This document shows positions 45,293-54,609 of a stretch of DNA of 64,000 nt, piece by piece. A model generated the notes under the pieces. It saw only the letters and a program-made list of their open reading frames with translations, made no database searches and was not told where the DNA came from. Origin of the DNA: Sporichthyaceae bacterium (GTDB taxonomy: Bacteria > Actinomycetota > Actinomycetes > Sporichthyales > Sporichthyaceae); contig DASXPS010000093.1 in the NCBI GenBank assembly GCA_036493475.1, positions 1 through 64,000 on the forward strand, in the 5' to 3' direction. How positions within the stretch are numbered: position 1 is the first letter of the stretch; every line of letters begins with the position of its first letter. A program made the translations under genes and the position numbers.

Positions 45293-46105
45293 GTGCCCAC
45301 CGATCCGTTCCGTCTGGACGGCGAGGTCGCGGTCGTCACCGGCGGCACGGCCGGTATCGGCGCAGCGATCGCCACCCTGTTCCGCGACCGCGGCGCCCGG
45401 GTGATCGTCTGTGGCCGCGATGCCGAGCGCGGCAAGGCCTTCGCCGACACCCACGGCATCGAGTTCGTGGGCGCGGACGTCACCAGCGAGGCCGATCTCG
45501 CCGGCCTGGCCGTCGCCGTGGGCCCGGCGTCGATCCTGGTGAACAACGCCGGCCCCACCGACCTGCTGCACACCCGCGAGGTCGACGGTCCGGTCGGCGA
45601 GATGACGCCGACCAACTGGGCCCGGGTGCTGGATGTCACGCTCACCGGCGCCTACCTGACGACCCATCATCTTTTGCCCGCGCTGATCCGGTCCGGCCAC
45701 GGTGCCATCGTGAACATTTCCTCGATCGCCGCCGCGCAGGCCATACCCGGCTTCGACGCCTACTCCGCAGGCAAGGCCGGCCTGGAGGCGATGACCCGTT
45801 CGCTGGCCGCGGGCTATGCCCACCTGGGCGTGCGGGCCAACGCGATCCGGGTCGGCTCGATCGCGGTCGACCATGGCGACGGCGAACGCCGCCGCGGCGT
45901 GGAGCCCGACCCGCGCCCGGACGCCTGGCGTCGCCCCGCCCCACCGGCCGCAGGTCGCCCGGAGGACATCGCGCACGCGGCGCTGTATCTGGCCGGCCCA
46001 GCAAGCAGTTACGTCACCGGCGTCGTGCTGCCGGTTGACGGCGGGCTCGGCACCCGCTCCTTGATGCCCTGGCAGACCCCCCGGCCGGGGCCGCCGGACG
46101 GCTGA
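45293..46105 (+). CDS. Short-chain dehydrogenase/reductase (270 aa)
   Basis: Classical SDR: TGGTAGIGAAIATLF, LVNNAGPTDL, ISSIAAAQAI then YSAGKAG catalytic block, and a final VTGVVLPVDGGLG. The segment GDGERRRGVEPDPRPDAWRR replaces the usual substrate loop and is unusually charged. Monocistronic by position; promoter is just upstream. Confidence 0.92.
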   Translation: MPTDPFRLDGEVAVVTGGTAGIGAAIATLFRDRGARVIVCGRDAERGKAFADTHGIEFVGADVTSEADLAGLAVAVGPASILVNNAGPTDLLHTREVDGPVGEMTPTNWARVLDVTLTGAYLTTHHLLPALIRSGHGAIVNISSIAAAQAIPGFDAYSAGKAGLEAMTRSLAAGYAHLGVRANAIRVGSIAVDHGDGERRRGVEPDPRPDAWRRPAPPAAGRPEDIAHAALYLAGPASSYVTGVVLPVDGGLGTRSLMPWQTPRPGPPDG

Positions 46106-46298
46106 TACACGGACTTTCCGCGCCAAATTCGCCTAGGGCGTGATGTCCGACCAATCCGACAAGCAGTCCTACTGGGTTCACGTACCGAAAAGTAGGGTTC
46201 GGTCACGTTCTGTCGTTACAGTGACCGGCGCGACAATTCGGACGTAAATTTGGGGCGCGGGTCAGTCCGGTGAACCGCATAAGCCTCAGGAGTCGCAC
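46106..46298 (+). promoter_or_regulatory. Leader/promoter region of ABC cassette 2
   Basis: 193 bp without a gene. It contains a perfect 6-bp inverted repeat ACCGAA-N8-TTCGGT at 46184-46203 with TAGGGT in its loop, which could be an operator over a -10 box. AGGAG (46288-46292) precedes the GTG at 46299. None of the three shared motifs is seen here. Confidence 0.45.
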
Positions 46299-47924
46299 GT
46301 GCCCCGTTCGCACCGCACGCTCCGTATTCTGGCCGCTGCTGCGGCCACGACCACCCTACTCAGCGCATGTGCCGCGAACAGCGAGGTTCGCCAGGCCGTC
46401 GCTCAACAACGCGCCGCCGCGGCCGCCGCACCCGCCGGTGGCGGGGCGCTCGCCGGCGCCTCGCTGGCCGCCGCCCAGCCGGGCGGCACCACCATCGACA
46501 CCGGCGCGGCCGCTGCGGCCGCCGCTCCCGGCGCCCCGGCCGCATCCACCGGCGGGGCCGCTCCGGTCGCCGCGGGTGGCGCCGCCCCGGCGGCCGGCGC
46601 CAAGGCCGCGGGCAAGAAGGACGCGAAGACCACCACGGCCACCGCCGGTCAGCCCGCCGCGGCCGCGGCGGGCGGGTGCACCGCGGCCGCCCCCGCGGGC
46701 GGCAACGGCGGAGCCACGGACAAGGGCGTCACCGCGACCACCATCAAGGTCGGTGGCACGTTCTTCAACGGCGGCTACCTGGACAAGTACGGCAAGGTGT
46801 CGGAGAACGCTGCCCGTGCGTACTTCGACTACATCAATGACAACGGCGGCATCTGCGGCCGGAAGATCCAGTACGTCACCTGTGACACCGCGGGCTCCGC
46901 GGACGGCACCACCGGCTGCCTGAACAAGCTGGCCAACCAGGACCAGGTCTTCATCATGGGCCCGTCCCTGGACTTCAACCTGGACATCGTTCAGCCCACG
47001 TTGGCCAAGGACAAGCTGCCCTGGGTTGGCTCCTCCGGCCTGTACGGCGAGGAATTCACCAGCCCGTGGATGTACCCGACGCAGTTGTCCGGCCCGGCGG
47101 TCGGTGCGTTGATCGCCCAGTACGCCGTGACCCAGCTGCACCTGAAGAAGATCGGCGTCTCGTTCCTCAATGACGTGGCGGGCCCCGGCTGCACCCAGCG
47201 GGTGCAGAAGGTCGCCGCCGCCAACGGGGCGCAGGTAGTGAAGACCACGTCCAACACCGAGATCGAGACCAGCCTGGACAGCCAGGTGGCCACGTTGAAG
47301 AACGCCGGCGTGGACTCCGTCCTGTTCTGCAACGACCCGGTGAACACGGTGAAGTTCATCCAGGCCGCCCAGCGAGTGGGCTGGAAGCCGACGTTCGTCG
47401 GTGGCTACGTGGCCGCGGACGACGTCCCGCAGGCCGCGGGCAGCAACGGCAAGGGCATGTACGGGTTCTCCTTCTGGGACTTCTACAAGAACAACACCCC
47501 GGGCGTGAACAAGTACCGGCAGATCACCGAGTACTACTTCCCGCAGACCTTCCACCACTTCTACGAGCAGGCCTGCTACGTGGGCGCCGAGGCGATCGTC
47601 GAGGCCTTGCGCAAGGCCGGCCCACACCTGACCCGCGACGACTTCCTCAAGGCGATCCGGTCGATGACCAACTTCGACTCCACACTGGGGCTGAAGCTGG
47701 ACTTCTCGAACCTGGCCGATACCGCCCCGAGCGGGGTCATGCTCAAGGCCGACGACAACCTCGTCTGGCAGCAGGCGGTGGCACGGTTCGGCCTGAACAA
47801 GGGCTCCGCCGCGGCCTCCAGTGGCACCGTCCGCGACGCCCTGCCCGCCGCCGTGATGCCCGAGCGTCGTAACCAGGCGCGCCGCATCCTGGGTAGGCGC
47901 AGCGCGGGGCGTCGGGTTCGATGA
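46299..47924 (+). CDS. ABC importer substrate-binding lipoprotein (cassette 2, 541 aa)
   Basis: Signal peptide with lipobox LLSAC (Cys24), then a very Ala/Gly-rich, low-complexity linker to about residue 140 that may cross the cell wall, then a Peripla_BP_6 fold (TIKVGGTFFNGGYLDKYGKV ... INDNGGICGRKIQYV). An Arg-rich tail ends the protein. It overlaps by 4 nt the first mini-ORF element, which leads to the permease gene. Ligand unknown; same class as the cassette 1 protein. Confidence 0.93.
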   Translation: MPRSHRTLRILAAAAATTTLLSACAANSEVRQAVAQQRAAAAAAPAGGGALAGASLAAAQPGGTTIDTGAAAAAAAPGAPAASTGGAAPVAAGGAAPAAGAKAAGKKDAKTTTATAGQPAAAAAGGCTAAAPAGGNGGATDKGVTATTIKVGGTFFNGGYLDKYGKVSENAARAYFDYINDNGGICGRKIQYVTCDTAGSADGTTGCLNKLANQDQVFIMGPSLDFNLDIVQPTLAKDKLPWVGSSGLYGEEFTSPWMYPTQLSGPAVGALIAQYAVTQLHLKKIGVSFLNDVAGPGCTQRVQKVAAANGAQVVKTTSNTEIETSLDSQVATLKNAGVDSVLFCNDPVNTVKFIQAAQRVGWKPTFVGGYVAADDVPQAAGSNGKGMYGFSFWDFYKNNTPGVNKYRQITEYYFPQTFHHFYEQACYVGAEAIVEALRKAGPHLTRDDFLKAIRSMTNFDSTLGLKLDFSNLADTAPSGVMLKADDNLVWQQAVARFGLNKGSAAASSGTVRDALPAAVMPERRNQARRILGRRSAGRRVR

Positions 47925-48004
47925 GAGAGCGCAGCGAACTCATCAATAGGCATAGGGCACGCCGGGGAGTTCGGCGCGCTGCCGGCCGTGAGGTACGCCG
48001 ATGA
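47921..48004 (+). repeat. MIRU-like coupling element 1: 27-codon mini-ORF
   Basis: An 84-nt element whose ATG overlaps the SBP stop (ATGA) and whose TGA overlaps the LivH-type ATG (ATGA). It encodes MRERSELINRHRARR... ending in VRR. Its first 43 bases are nearly the same as element 2 (49991), and both end in GAGGYACGCCG, which places GAGG seven bases before the next start. It therefore supplies both translational coupling and a ribosome-binding site. Mycobacterial MIRUs are known to contain small ORFs that overlap neighbouring genes in this way. Confidence 0.7.
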
Positions 48005-48879
48005 GCAAGTTCCTCGGATACGTCGTCACCGGGTTGGCCAACGGCACCATCTACGCGCTGGTCGCCCTCGGCGTGGTGATCACCTACCGGGTCTCCCGGG
48101 TGATCAACCTCGCCCAGGGCGCCACCGGGGTGCTCGCCGCGTTCCTGTTCCACTACACGCTGATGGGCAAGTTCGGCATGCCGGTGGCGGTGGCCACGGT
48201 GACCGCCATCCTGTTCGGCGCGGTGCTGGGCGCCGGCGTGGAACGCTTCGCGGTGCGCCCGGTGCGCCACCGCGGAGCGTTGGCCACGCTGACCGTCACC
48301 ACCGGAGTGCTGTTGATGTTCTCCGAACTCACCGTGCAGATCTGGGGGCCGAACAACCCGCCGATCGCCTCGGTGTTCTCCGACCACGTGGTGCACATCG
48401 GCAACACCGGTGTGACGGTGCATCAGCTGGCCACGGCGGCCGCGGTGGTGTTGCTGTCCGGCGGGCTGTACCTGCTGCTGGCCCGCACCTGGTTCGGCGC
48501 CGGGGTCACCGCGATCGCCCAGGACCCGGGCGCGGCTCGCATCGTTGGACTGCCGGTGAACGGCATCATCACTGCCACCTGGGCCATCGGTGGCGCCAGC
48601 GCCGCGCTGGCCGGCCTGATGTACATCCACCTGAACTCTCTGGACCAGATCAGCCTGACCTTCGTGCTGATCTCCAGCCTGGTCGCCGCGGCGCTGGGCG
48701 GGTTCAACAGCCTGCCGCTGGCCGGGGCCGGCGGCCTGGCCGTCGGGCTGATCTTCAGCCTCAGCCAGGGTTACGCGTCCACCGCGGGGATCGGTGAGCT
48801 GTTGGTCTTCATCGCCCTGCTGGTGGTGCTGGTGGCTCGCTCCGGCAAGCCGCAGCTGGACGTGGTGGCGGAGTTCTGA
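48001..48879 (+). CDS. ABC permease, LivH type (cassette 2, 292 aa)
   Basis: Branched-chain-type permease: YVVTGLANGTIYALVALGVV, SRVINLAQGATGVLAAF, and GLPVNGIITATWAIGGASAA. About eight membrane spans. ATG 48001 lies seven bases after GAGG within element 1. Its TGA shares one base with the LivM-type ATG (TGATG). Confidence 0.95.
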   Translation: MSKFLGYVVTGLANGTIYALVALGVVITYRVSRVINLAQGATGVLAAFLFHYTLMGKFGMPVAVATVTAILFGAVLGAGVERFAVRPVRHRGALATLTVTTGVLLMFSELTVQIWGPNNPPIASVFSDHVVHIGNTGVTVHQLATAAAVVLLSGGLYLLLARTWFGAGVTAIAQDPGAARIVGLPVNGIITATWAIGGASAALAGLMYIHLNSLDQISLTFVLISSLVAAALGGFNSLPLAGAGGLAVGLIFSLSQGYASTAGIGELLVFIALLVVLVARSGKPQLDVVAEF

Positions 48880-49994
48880 TGGCCCGCGCCCGCACCCAAC
48901 GATCGAGCCTGCTCAGCCTGGACAGCATCGGCGTGCTGGTGCTGGCCGCGGCCGCGGTGCTCTGGCCGGTCTTCACCCCGAAGGTCGCGCACTTCTACGG
49001 CACGCTGTCCGCCACCTACGCGCTGGTCGGCCTGTCACTGGTGATCCTGGTCGGCTGGACCGGGCAGATCTCCCTCGGTCACGCCGCATTCCTCGGTTTC
49101 GGCTGCTACATCGGCGCGAAACTGCTCAACCACAACGTGCCGTTGGTTCTCGCCGTGCCGATCATCGCCGCGGCCGGCGCGGCCATCAGCCTGGTGCTGG
49201 GCGTGCCCTCGTTGCGCCTGCGCGGGGTGTATCTGACGATCACCACATTGGCCTTCGGTGTGGCCTGCCAGCGCTACTTCTTCACCCGGCCGCAGTTGCG
49301 CGGCAGCACCGCCGTGGAAGTGCCGCGCAAGACCCTGCTCGGCTGGTCCACCGAATCCGACCGCGGTCTGTACTACGCCGTGCTGGTGGTGCTGGCGGTG
49401 GCGCTGCTGCTGGCCTGGAACGTCCGGCGCACCGACACCGGGCGGGTGCTGTTCGCCATCCGTGACTCCGAGCAGGCCGCGGCCGCCATGGGCATCCGCA
49501 TCGCGCCGTACAAGGTCGGTGTGTTCGCCGCGTCCGCCGCGTTGGCCACCGTGGCCGGGCTGTTCTACGGCATGTTGTTCCGCTCCACGCCGGGCGCGGA
49601 CCAATTCGGTGTGCTGCAGTCGCTGTTCTACCTGGCCATGCCGGTGCTCGGCGGGGCCGAGGCCATTCTCGGTGCGGTGATCGGCGGATCGTTCCTGGCC
49701 ACCGGGCAACCGCTGGTGAACCTGTTCGACGTCCGGCTGTACCTGGTGTCCAGCGTTTCGCTGCTGCTCATGCTGCTCTCCGGACAGGACGGGGTTGTCG
49801 GCATGCTGCACAACGCGCGCAAGACGCTGGCCGACGCCATCCGCGGCGAACCGATCCGTTACGGCTCGTTCGTGCCGGAAACCCACACCGAACGGCCCGA
49901 CCGGTCGCCGGTGGTACACGTGCAGATCGAAGAGCCGCTGCCCGAGGGCACCGTGATTCGGGCGCGACTGGTGCGGGGCGGTGCACACGTATGA
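48879..49994 (+). CDS. ABC permease, LivM type (cassette 2, 371 aa)
   Basis: LivM-type features: GWTGQISLGHAAFLGFGCYI, LRLRGVYLTITTLAFGVACQ, and AVIGGSFLATGQPL. A C-terminal cytoplasmic tail of about 60 residues follows the last span, longer than usual. It overlaps mini-ORF element 2 by 4 nt. Forms the channel with LivH. Confidence 0.95.
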   Translation: MARARTQRSSLLSLDSIGVLVLAAAAVLWPVFTPKVAHFYGTLSATYALVGLSLVILVGWTGQISLGHAAFLGFGCYIGAKLLNHNVPLVLAVPIIAAAGAAISLVLGVPSLRLRGVYLTITTLAFGVACQRYFFTRPQLRGSTAVEVPRKTLLGWSTESDRGLYYAVLVVLAVALLLAWNVRRTDTGRVLFAIRDSEQAAAAMGIRIAPYKVGVFAASAALATVAGLFYGMLFRSTPGADQFGVLQSLFYLAMPVLGGAEAILGAVIGGSFLATGQPLVNLFDVRLYLVSSVSLLLMLLSGQDGVVGMLHNARKTLADAIRGEPIRYGSFVPETHTERPDRSPVVHVQIEEPLPEGTVIRARLVRGGAHV

Positions 49995-50074
49995 GCGAGC
50001 GCAGCGAGCTCATCAATGGGCACAGTGCACGCCCACAACGGCGCCGCACCGATCGAAGCGAGGCACGCCGGTGA
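49991..50074 (+). repeat. MIRU-like coupling element 2: 27-codon mini-ORF
   Basis: 84 nt, encoding MSERSELINGHSARP... ending in EARR. It starts on the LivM stop (ATGA) and its TGA overlaps the LivG GTG (GTGA). Arms ATGAGC and GCTCAT at its 5' end could form a small hairpin. Same length and same conserved ends as element 1; the middle differs. Confidence 0.7.
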
Positions 50075-50835
50075 GTGGGCACTTGATCGGTACCGGGATG
50101 ACCAAGCGCTACGCGGGCCTGGTGGCCAACGACGACATCGACGTCGAGGTGCAGCCGGGCGAGATCGTCGGCCTGATCGGGCCGAACGGCGCGGGCAAGA
50201 CGACGCTGTTCAACTGTCTGACCGGGGCACAGAAACTGACCGCGGGCAAGATCGTGCTCAACGGCAAGGACATCACCACGCTACCCGCCAGCGAGCGCGC
50301 TCGGCTGGGTCTGGCCCGCACGTTCCAGCAGTCCCAGTTGTTCCGTCACCTCTCGGTGGAGGAGAACCTGCTGTTGGGCAAGCACCGCAGCTACGGCACC
50401 GGCGCCGTGCTCGGCGCGCTGGGCCTGGCCGGCCGGTCCGAGCGGGCGGCACGCAAGGTGGTGCACCAAACCGCCGAGCAGTGCGGGCTCAACGACGTGT
50501 TGCACGCCCCGGTGGGCGACCTGCCCTACGGCACCCAGCGCATGGTCGAGGTGGCGCGGGCGATCGTGATGAACCCCGAGGTGTTGCTCGTCGACGAACC
50601 CGCCGCGGGCATGGACAGCACCGAGTCGGAGTACTTCGGCAACCTGCTGCGCCGGATCAGCCGGGAGCGCGCGATGTCCGTGCTGATCATCGAGCACGAC
50701 GTGACCATGGTGCTGGCCATCTGCGACCGGGTGTACGTGCTGAACTTCGGCAAGCTGTTGGCCCGGGGCCTGCCGGCGCAGATCCGCGCCAACGAAGAGG
50801 TCCGGGCGGCCTACCTGGGGAGCACGGTGGCCTGA
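50071..50835 (+). CDS. ABC transporter ATP-binding protein, LivG type (cassette 2)
   Basis: 254 residues. Walker A GPNGAGKTTLFNCL, signature region LPYGTQRMVEVARAI, Walker B VLLVDEPAAGMD, and IIEHDVTMV. GTG 50071 is set by the mini-ORF overlap and by GAGG seven bases before it. Its stop shares a base with the LivF ATG. Confidence 0.95.
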   Translation: MSGHLIGTGMTKRYAGLVANDDIDVEVQPGEIVGLIGPNGAGKTTLFNCLTGAQKLTAGKIVLNGKDITTLPASERARLGLARTFQQSQLFRHLSVEENLLLGKHRSYGTGAVLGALGLAGRSERAARKVVHQTAEQCGLNDVLHAPVGDLPYGTQRMVEVARAIVMNPEVLLVDEPAAGMDSTESEYFGNLLRRISRERAMSVLIIEHDVTMVLAICDRVYVLNFGKLLARGLPAQIRANEEVRAAYLGSTVA

Positions 50836-51593
50836 TGGCAATGACCGAAGAGGCCAAGGCCTTCGCCGGTGTGGGCGCGGGTGAGAAGCCGCTGCTGGCC
50901 GCGCGGTCCCTCGACGTTGCCTACGGTTCCGTGCTGGCCGTGCGTGGTCTCTCGCTGCAGGTCGCCAAGGGCGAGATCGTCGCCCTGCTCGGCCCGAACG
51001 GCGCGGGCAAGACCTCCACGCTGCGCGGGGTGACCGGCCTGGTCCGGCCCCGCGCGGGCACGGTGAGCGTGAACGGGGTGCGCATCGACGGGCACGGCGC
51101 GGCCGCTGCGGTGCGGGCGGGCCTGGCGCACGTGCCGGAGGGCCGCCGGGTGTTCCCCGAGATGACCGTGCTGGACAACCTGCGGCTGGGTGCCTGGACG
51201 GACCGGCGCAAGGGCAAGGTCGTGGACGAGCGGGTGCGCACCGCGTTCGAGCTGTTCCCGCGGCTGGGCGAACGCCGCGGTCAGGCCGCGGGCTCCATGT
51301 CCGGCGGCGAGCAGCAGATGCTGGCCATTGCCCGGGCACTAATGTCTGACCCGCAACTATTGCTGATCGACGAGTTGTCGCTGGGCCTGTCCCCGCTGGT
51401 GGTTGACGAGATCTTGGCCCGCCTGGTGGAGCTGAACCGGGCCGGATTGTCCATATTGCTTATTGAACAGTTCGTGCACCGGGCGCTGGACGTGGCCGAC
51501 CGCGTTTATGTGCTGAAGAAGGGCCGGGTGGCCTACAGCGGTACGCCGGAAGCCGCAGTTCGGGTCGGCGCTGTCGAGGAGGCTTACCTATGA
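50835..51593 (+). CDS. ABC transporter ATP-binding protein, LivF type (cassette 2)
   Basis: 252 residues. Walker A GPNGAGKTSTLRG, signature SGGEQQMLAIARAL, Walker B LLLIDELSLGLSP, LLIEQFVHRAL. ATG 50835 or ATG 50841. It ends on mini-ORF element 3, which links it to the surface-anchored protein gene, evidence that the latter belongs to the transporter operon. Confidence 0.95.
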   Translation: MAMTEEAKAFAGVGAGEKPLLAARSLDVAYGSVLAVRGLSLQVAKGEIVALLGPNGAGKTSTLRGVTGLVRPRAGTVSVNGVRIDGHGAAAAVRAGLAHVPEGRRVFPEMTVLDNLRLGAWTDRRKGKVVDERVRTAFELFPRLGERRGQAAGSMSGGEQQMLAIARALMSDPQLLLIDELSLGLSPLVVDEILARLVELNRAGLSILLIEQFVHRALDVADRVYVLKKGRVAYSGTPEAAVRVGAVEEAYL

Positions 51594-51628
51594 GCGAGTT
51601 GCGAGCTCATCAACGGGCACAGCTATGA
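51590..51628 (+). repeat. MIRU-like coupling element 3 (short): 12-codon mini-ORF
   Basis: 39 nt encoding MSELRAHQRAQL then TGA. It retains ATGAGCGAG...GAGCTCATCAACGGGCACAG of the longer elements with a small internal deletion, and lacks their 3' part. Start overlaps the LivF stop and stop overlaps the next ATG, both ATGA. The next gene thus has no GAGG Shine-Dalgarno of its own and may depend on re-initiation. Confidence 0.65.
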
Positions 51629-52947
51629 GCAACACGCGACGTGCGCTACGCGTGCTGGCCGGTACTGGGGCGTTGGGCCTGACCGGGGTCCTGGTGCTGG
51701 GCTGGGGTCCGGCCGCCAAGGCCGACCCACCGAGCACGCTGGCCACGTTCGTCGCGACGAGCTACGCCACCCCGTACGGCGTCATCAGCCGGGTACCGGT
51801 GGAGAGCGCCGGTGGCTTCCTCTACTCGAAGTCCTCGGTGCAGTTGGGCAAGTCGCTGAGCATGGCCGCCGGGTTCACCCTGGGCGAACTCGGTGACACC
51901 TTCGTGGTCACCTCGGCACCGCCGAACACCATCACCTCGATGCCCTCGGTGATCAACGCGCAGGACCCGCCCTCGACCACTGCCCCGAAGGAAGCCCACC
52001 TGACGGCCGGCCAGTACGGCGGGGCCGACAGCGGTGAGGTGCGCAATGCGGACCTGGCTGCCCGGGCCAACTCCGAGGATGCCCCGACGGCCACCGCGCA
52101 GGCGGCAGGCAATGCGGTGTCCTCCGCCCCGTTCAGCTCCGGGGCGTCCAGCTCGCGCAGCGACAGCGCGGTGGCCCCGGACGGCACGGTGAGCACCAAG
52201 GCCATCACCAGCGTGCAGAACGTGGTGATCGGCTCCGGGGCCACTGCGCTCACCATCGCCGCGGTGGACAGCGTGGCCTCGGTGAGCATCGCGCCCGGCG
52301 GCAAACCCATCCCGACGCTGACCGTCCACACCTTCGGCGCGCAGTTGGCCGGCGTGCCGGTCACCATCGACAGCAAGGGCATCAGCATCGACAACCAGGT
52401 CGCGCTGCCGCCGGACGCGCTGACCGCCTTCAAGGCCGGCATGGATCAACTGGCCGCACAAGGGTTGACGTTCACCCCCTCCCCGATGCAGACGCAGAGC
52501 ATCCCGGAGGGCGCGACAGTCTCCGGTGCCGTGTTCTCCTTCCGCTACCACTACCCGGACGCCTTCCCGCGGCCCAGCGACATCGGCACCGACGAGGAAT
52601 GGCGCCTGGGCAGCGTGTACGCCTCGGCGACCGCCCGGCCGCGCACCGAACCGCCAGTGGCGGCTCCGGTGGCCGGCGCCCCCGCCGGGTCGGCCGCGGC
52701 TGCGCCGGATGTGGCCGCGCCGGCGAGCGCCCCGCTCACGCCGGGCCTGCCGCCGGGCGCACCCGCCCCGGTGGGCACCGGGCAGCTGAACCCGGCCACC
52801 GCACCGGCGGAGGAACCGTTGTTCGCCCTGCCTGCCCGGGTCGCCTCGCCACTGCCGGGTGAGTTCCGGGACGGCTATCGATACGTTCTGTTGGCGGCCC
52901 TGGCCGGCATCGGCACCATGATCATCGTCCTCAAGCGCGCGCTGTAG
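51625..52947 (+). CDS. Secreted, C-terminally membrane-anchored protein (440 aa), cassette 2
   Basis: Signal peptide about 1-33 (ending AKA-D), a Ser/Ala-rich ectodomain of about 300 residues, a Pro/Ala-rich stalk (about 340-400), then one membrane helix (YVLLAALAGIGTMIIVL) and a short basic tail KRAL. Distantly homologous to the cassette 1 protein at 25471-26712, most clearly where HTFGAQLAGVPVTIDSKGIS aligns with VTGLSVAGVPLTFGPDGLS. It may present substrate to the lipoprotein or bind cell-wall material; function unknown. Confidence 0.78.
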   Translation: MSNTRRALRVLAGTGALGLTGVLVLGWGPAAKADPPSTLATFVATSYATPYGVISRVPVESAGGFLYSKSSVQLGKSLSMAAGFTLGELGDTFVVTSAPPNTITSMPSVINAQDPPSTTAPKEAHLTAGQYGGADSGEVRNADLAARANSEDAPTATAQAAGNAVSSAPFSSGASSSRSDSAVAPDGTVSTKAITSVQNVVIGSGATALTIAAVDSVASVSIAPGGKPIPTLTVHTFGAQLAGVPVTIDSKGISIDNQVALPPDALTAFKAGMDQLAAQGLTFTPSPMQTQSIPEGATVSGAVFSFRYHYPDAFPRPSDIGTDEEWRLGSVYASATARPRTEPPVAAPVAGAPAGSAAAAPDVAAPASAPLTPGLPPGAPAPVGTGQLNPATAPAEEPLFALPARVASPLPGEFRDGYRYVLLAALAGIGTMIIVLKRAL

Positions 52948-52975
52948 TCGGCCAAGGACCTCAGAGGGAGACACC

Positions 52976-53344
52976 ATGAACAACAAGCTCGGTGACCTGG
53001 GGCTCAAGGCGCTCGCCGCGGCTCTGGTGGCCGCCGGCCTACTCTGCGTTCTGCTGGGCTACCTCGGGGTGCGCCGCAACGACGACATCGTGCTGCAACT
53101 GCCCTATCTCGCCTCCGGCGGTGTGGGCGGGCTGGCGCTGATCGCGCTGGGCGCGGTGGTGCTGATCGTCGAGCAGATGCGAGCGCAGAGCCGGCGCGCC
53201 GCCGCGGTCAGCGAGGCGCTGGAGGAGTGGAAGGAGGCGGCCATGGCCGAACTGCGTGCCTTCCTGGACAGCGCGACGCTGGAACTCGAGGTGCCGCCGC
53301 GTAATCACCGCGCCGCGAACGATCCGGCCGGCGCACGCAACTGA
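52976..53344 (+). CDS. Small two-span membrane protein (122 aa), cassette 2
   Basis: Two membrane helices (LAAALVAAGLLCVLLGYLG and ASGGVGGLALIALGAVVLI) and a charged, partly coiled tail (QMRAQSRRAAAVSEALEEW). Homologue of the 129-aa protein at 25085-25474. GAGGGAG precedes ATG 52976. Two base pairs separate it from the regulator gene. Confidence 0.78.
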   Translation: MNNKLGDLGLKALAAALVAAGLLCVLLGYLGVRRNDDIVLQLPYLASGGVGGLALIALGAVVLIVEQMRAQSRRAAAVSEALEEWKEAAMAELRAFLDSATLELEVPPRNHRAANDPAGARN

Positions 53345-53346
53345 CC

Positions 53347-54609
53347 ATGCGGACCGCCGCGGTGTTGGTGTCCGCCGCGGCGCAACGGATGAGCGCGGAA
53401 CGCGGCAAGCTGATCGACGGGATGGTCGACATGCTCGCCGGCGAGATCGCGCCGCTGCAGCATGACGACGACCACCTGCTCGCGATGCTGGCCGCGTCCA
53501 CCCACGAGAGCGTCATGGGCGGCCTGCGGGTGCTGGAGAACAACCTCGACCCGCGCAGTTCCGAGGCGGGCGAGGCCGCCCTGCAGTACACCCGACGGCT
53601 GGCCCAGCGGGCGATCCCGTTGTCCGCGCTGCTGCGGGCGTTCCGTTTGGGGCACGCCTCGTTCGTGGAGATGCTGCTGGCCGAGATCGCGGCCGATCCC
53701 GACGTGAGCACGGCCGATGCCGCGGCGGCGGGTGTGGTGGCCATGCGCCAGTCCACCGGGTATGTGGACACGGTTTCCGAGCAATTGGTGGTCGCCTACG
53801 AACGGGAGCGCGAGGCGTGGACCCAGCACCACTCCATGCTGCGCGCCGGGATGATCAAGTCGCTGCTGGATGGCGACGACGTGGACGTGCCCGCCACCGA
53901 GGCTTCCTTGGGTTATCGCCTGGGTCAGACCCACCTGGGGTTGCTGCTGTGGTTCGACCGGGAAATGGGTGCGCCCGGGGAGGGCTTGCTCACCTTGGAG
54001 AAGCTGGCCACCCGGATTGCCGCGGCGTTGGACGGGTTGCATCTGTCGGTGCCGGCGGACGCGGACAGCGTGCAGGTCTGGATCGGGTTGCCCGGCGGGG
54101 ATCCCGGCGAGACGGCCGCCCCGACCGTTGGCTCGATATTGGAGGCGGTACCCGAGCCGCGGCCGCGCGCCGCGCTGGGTCGACCGGCGACCGGTATCGC
54201 CGGCTTCCGCTCCAGCCATCGTCAGGCCCGCGCGGCCCGGCAGGTGGCGGTGGCCGCCGGACGCCGCTGCGGGCCGGTCACCGACTACGCCGAGGTGGGC
54301 GCGATCGCCCTGCTGTGCACGGATCTGGCCACCACCCGGACCTGGGTGCAGGACACCCTCGGTGGGTTGGCAGGAGATGACGAGGCCACCGAGCGGTTGC
54401 GCGAGACCGTGCGGGTGTTCCTGCATCTGGGTTCCAGCCACACCGCCGCGGCGGAGAAGCTGAACCTGCACAAGAATTCGGTGGTCTACCGGATCGGCCG
54501 GGCCGAGGCACTGCGCGGCCGGCCACTGCGCTCCGACCGAGCCGACGTGGAACTGGCGCTGCGCGCCGCCCACCTGCTCGGACCGGTGGTGCTCGACCAA
54601 CAGAGCTGA
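53347..54609 (+). CDS. PucR/CdaR-type transcriptional regulator (420 aa)
   Basis: A C-terminal helix-turn-helix of the PucR type (FLHLGSSHTAAAEKLNLHKNSVVYRI) follows a GGDEF-like middle region and a helical N-terminal sensing region. Such proteins often regulate catabolic operons in response to ring-derived intermediates. It directly follows the ABC cassette 2 genes and precedes the esterase-P450-BVMO-ChoD genes, so it may control one or both. An ACTGACG-type dyad overlaps its stop. Confidence 0.88.
   Translation: MRTAAVLVSAAAQRMSAERGKLIDGMVDMLAGEIAPLQHDDDHLLAMLAASTHESVMGGLRVLENNLDPRSSEAGEAALQYTRRLAQRAIPLSALLRAFRLGHASFVEMLLAEIAADPDVSTADAAAAGVVAMRQSTGYVDTVSEQLVVAYEREREAWTQHHSMLRAGMIKSLLDGDDVDVPATEASLGYRLGQTHLGLLLWFDREMGAPGEGLLTLEKLATRIAAALDGLHLSVPADADSVQVWIGLPGGDPGETAAPTVGSILEAVPEPRPRAALGRPATGIAGFRSSHRQARAARQVAVAAGRRCGPVTDYAEVGAIALLCTDLATTRTWVQDTLGGLAGDDEATERLRETVRVFLHLGSSHTAAAEKLNLHKNSVVYRIGRAEALRGRPLRSDRADVELALRAAHLLGPVVLDQQS

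Follow-up and report, generated by a model that had tools for sequence, protein, structure and literature searches.

Three short repeats were found in a window of 64,000 nucleotides from a Sporichthyaceae bacterium (contig DASXPS010000093.1 of assembly GCA_036493475.1, positions 1 to 64,000, forward strand), where they occupy three of the five junctions of a liv operon for a branched-chain amino-acid transporter, namely, livK/livH, livM/livG and livF/next gene. All three probably represent a small non-autonomous mobile element, which inserts at the tetranucleotide DTGA (D = A, G or T), mostly at stop/start overlaps, preserves the relay of translation and spreads without uncoupling operons. Insertion of the element adds one unit and a second DTGA, and the first base of its start codon pairs with base 23 of the unit, closing a 5' hairpin.

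The original prediction, made from the sequence of the window, had described three mini open reading frames (mini-ORFs) of 27, 27 and 12 codons, each starting in the stop codon of one gene and ending in the start codon of the next, and had likened them to mycobacterial interspersed repetitive units (MIRU). Direct reading of the sequence agreed with its coordinates, codon counts and overlaps, and the conserved 5' block that it reported is present in all three elements, with two mismatches in element 1, none in element 2 and a shortened loop in element 3. The long copies (elements 1 and 2) terminate in GAGGTACGCCG and GAGGCACGCCG, and both show the predicted distance of exactly seven bases from GAGG to the next start, which was also confirmed over the family. 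Model R1, a sequence-only model built from 12 full-length copies of the genome of the window (G000), found exactly three copies in the window at E = 0.01, namely, elements 1–3 (the type labels A, B and C used here are our own naming):

47921-48000, + strand: element 1, type A unit, 80 bp, at livK/livH (R1, 70.1 bits, E = 9.4e-19)
47921-48004, + strand: mini-ORF 1, 27 codons, start in the livK stop (ATGA 47921-47924), TGA in the livH start
47921-47943, + strand: predicted 5' hairpin of element 1, closing pair A47921-T47943 (start-codon base and base 23), from family covariation and predicted fold
47990-47993, + strand: GAGG of element 1, 7 bases before the livH start, candidate Shine-Dalgarno sequence
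48001-48004, + strand: second DTGA of element 1, ATGA in the sequence, holding the livH start
49991-50070, + strand: element 2, type A unit, 80 bp, at livM/livG (R1, 72.4 bits, E = 1.9e-19)
49991-50074, + strand: mini-ORF 2, 27 codons, start in the livM stop (ATGA 49991-49994), TGA in the livG start
49991-50013, + strand: predicted 5' hairpin of element 2, closing pair A49991-T50013, from family covariation and predicted fold
50060-50063, + strand: GAGG of element 2, 7 bases before the livG start, candidate Shine-Dalgarno sequence
50071-50074, + strand: second DTGA of element 2, GTGA, where livG starts
51590-51624, + strand: element 3, short form, 35 bp, at livF/next gene (R1, 19.3 bits, E = 0.007)
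51590-51628, + strand: mini-ORF 3, 12 codons, its ATGA (51590-51593) overlapping the livF stop and its TGA lying in ATGA 51625-51628
51625-51628, + strand: second DTGA of element 3, ATGA, start of the next gene

Copies of the element and its filled and empty sites

Comparative analysis of corresponding junctions revealed the element as an inserted unit. At livM/livG, the junction is filled in G000, whereas a bare DTGA overlap was found in all five comparison loci (two of the sister genome G001, and those of G002, G003 and G004). At livF/next gene, where G000 has the 35 bp form, G001 carries a tandem pair of 77 bp copies, and the DTGA overlap is bare in both G002 and G003. No element is present at this junction in G004 or in the second locus of G001, both with slightly different spacing. 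At livK/livH, both G000 and G001 carry an 80 bp element, the two differing in sequence; the second locus of G001 shows a bare ATGA there. In an operon that we take to be qcrC-qcrA-qcrB, named here by the look of its proteins rather than by a family search, the first junction is filled in G000 and a bare ATGA in G001, and the next junction shows the reverse (flank search). Insertion with a preserved overlap was thus found at five junctions: livM/livG, livF/next gene, livK/livH and two in the qcrCAB-like operon. The empty junctions of relatives are nearly always a bare DTGA stop/start overlap. The comparison of filled and empty junctions shows that the elements were inserted and that a DTGA stands at both ends afterwards, and the "portable" character attributed to the repeats by the original prediction was thereby borne out.

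As for the loci themselves, the second G001 locus (C69:65000-72500, L089) is a second, paralogous liv operon with no element at the compared junctions, and the reciprocal qcrCAB elements are L040 (C217 of G000) and L125 (C120 of G001), at neighbouring junctions.

The 20-base pattern GAGCGCAGCGAGCTCATCAA, with up to three mismatches, gave 20 matches in the genome versus 0 for a reversed-pattern control. The search of the whole genome and of relatives that the original prediction had proposed found further copies, with 35 R1 matches at E ≤ 0.01 in G000 and 66 in G001; matches were also present in three genomes of the genus Sporichthya (4, 2 and 19), and the best E-values reached 7e-20. The locus set comprised 100 rows, namely, 34 of the 35 own matches (C181:32206, without a locus, was omitted) and the 66 of G001; a 5' NTGA was absent from three rows, and in 15 of the remaining 97, no mini-ORF stopped in a DTGA within range. 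The alignment of 73 unique copies took those with a DTGA offset of 74, 77, 80, 83 or 86, which favours frame-keeping lengths; the length statistic was therefore taken from 67 full-span copies (model end reached, 5' NTGA present). A further alignment, A2, held all 23 own copies, 25 of the 49 from G001 and 25 others, and a broader model, R2, was built from 73 varied copies.

Unit sizes across the family are 77, 80, 35, 50 bp and others. Type A, mostly with an 80 bp unit, includes the two long copies of the window; type B has a 77 bp unit and a strong second hairpin, and type C, also with a 77 bp unit, makes up the majority of the G001 copies. Besides the pair at livF/next gene in G001, a tandem array of two copies lies at C49:7-166 of G000. 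Three tandem copies stand at C22:32672-32908 of G001 (L134), with GCAA in place of DTGA at the inner junctions and with a mini-ORF that spans all three (in-frame stop 234 bases on), ending in CTGA. On C104 of G000, four type B copies (L045, L048, L049 and L052) lie on the same strand within about 24 kb of one contig.

The operon itself has the gene order livK-H-M-G-F, as assigned by Pfam, plus one further gene:

46299-47924, + strand: livK-like gene, upstream of element 1 (PF13458, E = 1.9e-53)
48001-48879, + strand: livH-like permease (PF02653, E = 8.5e-27)
48879-49994, + strand: livM-like permease (PF02653, E = 3e-37)
50071-50835, + strand: livG-like ATPase (PF00005, E = 6.8e-32; PF12399, E = 2.6e-9)
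50835-51593, + strand: livF-like ATPase (PF00005, E = 2.1e-29)
51625-52947, + strand: gene 3' of element 3 (no Pfam family at E ≤ 0.001)

The last of these genes adjoins livF in relatives too, with an identity of 48–57%. A PucR-type regulator (HTH_30 and GGDEF-like domain) lies downstream of the operon at 53347-54609. Rfam 15 gave no match above the gathering score in positions 46000-54000 of the window.

Reading frame and hairpins

The unit length was 77 bp in 51 of the 67 full-span copies, 80 bp in 11, 86 bp in two, and 69, 76 and 78 bp in one each, so that 64 of the 67 are 2 mod 3 in length. All 67 end in ATGA, GTGA or TTGA, and 61 hold an uninterrupted mini-ORF between the two DTGA. In copies without a base at column 27 of the 73-copy alignment, column 58 was occupied in 23 of 23 with a two-base loop and empty in 16 of 20 with a three-base loop. 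In total, 39 of 43 copies balance a one-base change of the loop by one base at column 58 and keep their length class while the frame between the two positions differs; the reading relay is thus conserved and the peptide is not. This compensation is stronger evidence than the open frame itself.

The flanks on both sides were coding-like on the same strand at 48 of the 82 sites with an intact mini-ORF versus 15 of 809 control DTGA sites taken from the same stretches, coding-like being judged by codon use; several of the other sites belong to the interior of tandem arrays or are close to contig ends. The exact seven-base distance from GAGG to the following start was observed in 12 of 13 copies of type A and 16 of 18 of type B; in type C, 17 of 42 copies contain a GAGG, and 16 of 42 have it at this distance. 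The original proposal that the repeats are translational couplers donating a ribosome-binding site thus agrees with the four-base (−4) overlaps on both sides, the same-strand junctions and the GAGG spacing; the coupling itself we infer.

Covariation analysis of the 73 copies revealed columns 1 and 23 as the pair with the highest mutual information (corrected score 0.62, next pair 0.35). Column 1 is the first base of the start codon, and the two columns form A-T in 42 copies, G-C in 23 and C-G in one, i.e., 66 of 73 Watson–Crick pairs, whereas 20000 permutations, which ignore kinship among the copies, averaged 36.8 and reached at most 52. Columns 20–21, opposite an invariant GA at columns 3–4, are GA in 49 copies, TC in 23 and GG in one, and were read as pairing with it either as Watson–Crick or as tandem sheared G-A. 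The agreement at columns 1 and 23 holds within both classes (45 of 49 copies with GA, 0 of 20000 permutations; 20 of 23 copies with TC, 16 of 20000). The 5' stem is capped by a GNA triloop or by a loop of two bases; both the GNA triloop and the tandem sheared G-A motif are known for their stability. In alignment A2, the 5' hairpin had 27 cells changed on both sides versus a shuffled mean of 11.8 (none of 500 shuffles as high), with at most 4 in slid controls; the changes on both sides were limited to two of the eight hairpin pairs, which is not above shuffles. The consensus RNA structure of the first 12 copies was weak overall, and the hairpin emerged with more copies. Among additional copies, the start base and base 23 form a Watson–Crick pair in 27 of the 32 read in Sporichthya and genus g6 (33 loci, one unmatched) and in all 15 taken from genomes elsewhere in the class.

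In type B, a second hairpin encloses the downstream start in a nine-pair stem with many compensatory changes (20 copies), and its predicted fold had a mean z of −3.98, the start being paired at 0.95 versus 0.46 in shuffled sequences (18 copies). The start-codon hairpins, the covariation of the start base, the frame compensation and the class-wide distribution given below are observations beyond the original prediction.

Taken with the anatomy, these data suggest the following course of events. Insertion leaves a DTGA at both ends, as the filled and empty sites show; a ribosome finishing the upstream gene would restart on the element's own DTG and translate 12–27 codons, and after terminating in the second DTGA, it would start again on the downstream gene. 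The 5' end folds into a hairpin whose first base is also the first base of the start codon. In one subfamily, the second hairpin encloses the start of the downstream gene together with part of the GAGG before it, and this start may therefore depend on translation through the element. The likely outcome would be the spread of the element without uncoupling of the invaded operons, any benefit to the host being secondary.

It should be noted that several observations weigh against this account. Six of the 67 full-span copies have a broken mini-ORF (two with lengths of 0 mod 3, one of 1 mod 3 and three with internal stops), so the relay appears dispensable at some sites. The open frame alone is modest evidence, since other frames are often open in GC-rich DNA: of the 73 aligned copies, 69 have an open mini-ORF frame, 51 and 44 are open in the other two forward frames, and 35, 61 and 26 in the reverse frames. 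At 9 of the 82 sites, coding DNA lies downstream of the element but the upstream frame is closed, which means that some insertions do not link a pair of overlapping genes. The Sporichthya livK/livH junction is TGATCCATG, without a DTGA overlap. The permutations disregard the kinship of the copies. No significant second hairpin was found in types A and C (mean z of −0.54 and −0.38), so a locked downstream start would apply at most weakly to the copies of the window. Finally, Y1_Tnp (PF01797) was found in none of five family genomes, whereas the control matched 5 of 14 known genomes.

Distribution and alternative explanations

A search of the class with model R2 matched 36 of 393 genomes at E ≤ 1e-4, in 16 of 137 genera. 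The 15 loci examined (one per genome, from seven families other than f1) all have a unit of 77 or 80 bp and an open mini-ORF ending in DTGA between open frames on both sides; being the best matches, they give no estimate of this fraction for all copies. A narrow distribution, which the strict R1 search of the phylum (4 of 396 genomes) and the exact 5' pattern (3 of 396) had indicated, was overturned by this result. With model R1, 29 of 39 genomes of genus g6 matched at E ≤ 0.001, and 18 of 40 genomes of genus g5 (presumed Mycobacterium) gave weak matches (E ≤ 0.05, best 7e-4); most of the 16 g5 loci inspected lie in coding-like DNA without element ends. A primer pattern picked out no M. tuberculosis genome among 396 genomes of g5. 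A plasmid collection queried with one g6 copy gave no match at E = 0.01, and viral contigs searched by the 5' pattern yielded none.

The alternative that survives best is that the hairpins serve mobility only: an enzyme would read a folded single strand, DTGA being paired to an internal GAAY/TCAY, and the open mini-ORF would mark the insertions that were tolerated. We give this reading slightly less than even credence. The start base covaries with its hairpin partner irrespective of reading frame. The two DTGA have an identical first base in 51 of 67 copies (permutation mean 30.3, maximum 45), an agreement that fits target duplication or element-borne ends. In genus g6, a clear 3' stem was found in 13 of 19 copies, and in 11 of these 13, the first base of the 3' DTGA is closed by a Watson–Crick pair (A-T in six, G-C in five); the g6 copies L193 and L195 have differing end bases, each matched by its own hairpin partner, which favours the hairpins as the stronger constraint. 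Against this stand the offset of the loop change, which looks like selection on the frame after insertion, and the lack of a Y1 transposase in the five genomes.

Domestication, with hosts retaining copies that set the ratio of neighbouring gene products, is considered improbable. Although livK/livH is occupied in both G000 and G001, the copies there differ in sequence, and at most comparable junctions, just one of the two genomes carries an element. A precedent is the MIRU array of variable repeat number (MIRU-VNTR) upstream of an M. tuberculosis gene, whose length correlated with the mRNA level according to the accessible part of the report (PMC2734929).

A function of the mini-ORFs as coding sequences for micropeptides is very improbable and was rejected: the frame is open in most copies, but the variants with three-base and two-base loops read the same conserved DNA in different frames and would yield unrelated peptides, and the 35 bp form retains just 12 codons. 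Chance or low-complexity likeness among gene starts, for which the common ATGAGC gene starts of high-GC genomes might speak, can practically be dismissed on the pattern control, the E-values of the model and the insertion at five junctions.

Relation to known repeats

The defining paper on MIRU is reportedly that of Supply et al. from 1997. MIRU are described as repeats of 40–100 bp at 41 loci, with units of 77 and 53 bp (PMC2734929, PMC4213456, as far as these texts were accessible). These two sizes, like the units analyzed here, are 2 mod 3. The likeness extends to repeats of this size at many loci of one genome (here 35 and 66 matches), an internal small ORF with −4 overlaps with its neighbours (here the 61 full-span copies with an uninterrupted mini-ORF), insertion at start codons or DTGA (here from the filled and empty junctions) and tandem arrays at some loci (here in G000 and G001). 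The elements differ from MIRU in their hosts, which are Sporichthyaceae and other families of the class, and in their terminal hairpins with a covarying start-codon base, which are not mentioned for MIRU in the accessible parts of the descriptions (PMC12548453, PMC2734929, PMC4213456). Judged by anatomy, the Sporichthyaceae elements would work like MIRU. Thus, the comparison made by the original prediction holds for the anatomy, as far as it is described in the accessible part of PMC12548453; descent from mycobacterial MIRU is hypothetical.

The enterobacterial RU-1, RU-2 and RU-3 repeats of the ERIC type are likewise intergenic repeats resembling miniature inverted-repeat transposable elements (MITEs), of approximately 100–170 bp and with reading frames, but they belong to another phylum, have another sequence and lie inside genes, and no stop/start relay is mentioned for them in the part of the source available (PMC2759123). 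Termination–reinitiation at NTGA has the same geometry, −4 being the commonest gene overlap (PMC12548453, as accessible), and concerns ordinary gene pairs without a mobile relay cistron. The terminal hairpins (5' in the family, 3' in type B and g6) resemble those of IS200/IS605 and of REP sequences, from which the elements differ in that the target stands at both ends and in that five family genomes showed no Y1 transposase. In the IS200/IS605 and REP/TnpA-REP systems, the hairpins of the ends form on one strand, and an internal guide recognises a short target motif by pairing.

No literature match was obtained with the sequence or peptide strings of the repeat as text, nor in a whole-word search for MIRU together with translational coupling. 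Titles and the beginnings of abstracts, in a search that mostly did not cover subscription papers, contained no report of such elements outside mycobacteria. Within the literature searched, the occurrence outside mycobacteria, the start-base covariation, the terminal hairpins and the frame compensation appear to be new.

A wider reading, offered as a speculation that we consider rather unlikely, is that a class-wide actinomycete family picks its sites by pairing DTGA, the variable D included, with the internal GAAY/TCAY in the fold of each end, either as Watson–Crick or as tandem sheared G-A. The hairpins would later hold the start codons and let translation pass the element by ribosome relay only, and mycobacterial MIRU would be one branch of this family, moving by a guide-paired reaction of the folded strand.

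MIRU are widely used in tuberculosis strain typing, and their movement and role are still open according to the accessible parts of PMC2734929 and PMC12548453. The dozens of copies, the comparable empty sites, the length modulo 3 and the start base with its partner make the movement and role of MIRU testable in actinomycetes. By their anatomy, the elements, whose variants range from 35 to 86 bases, would serve as natural translational relays.

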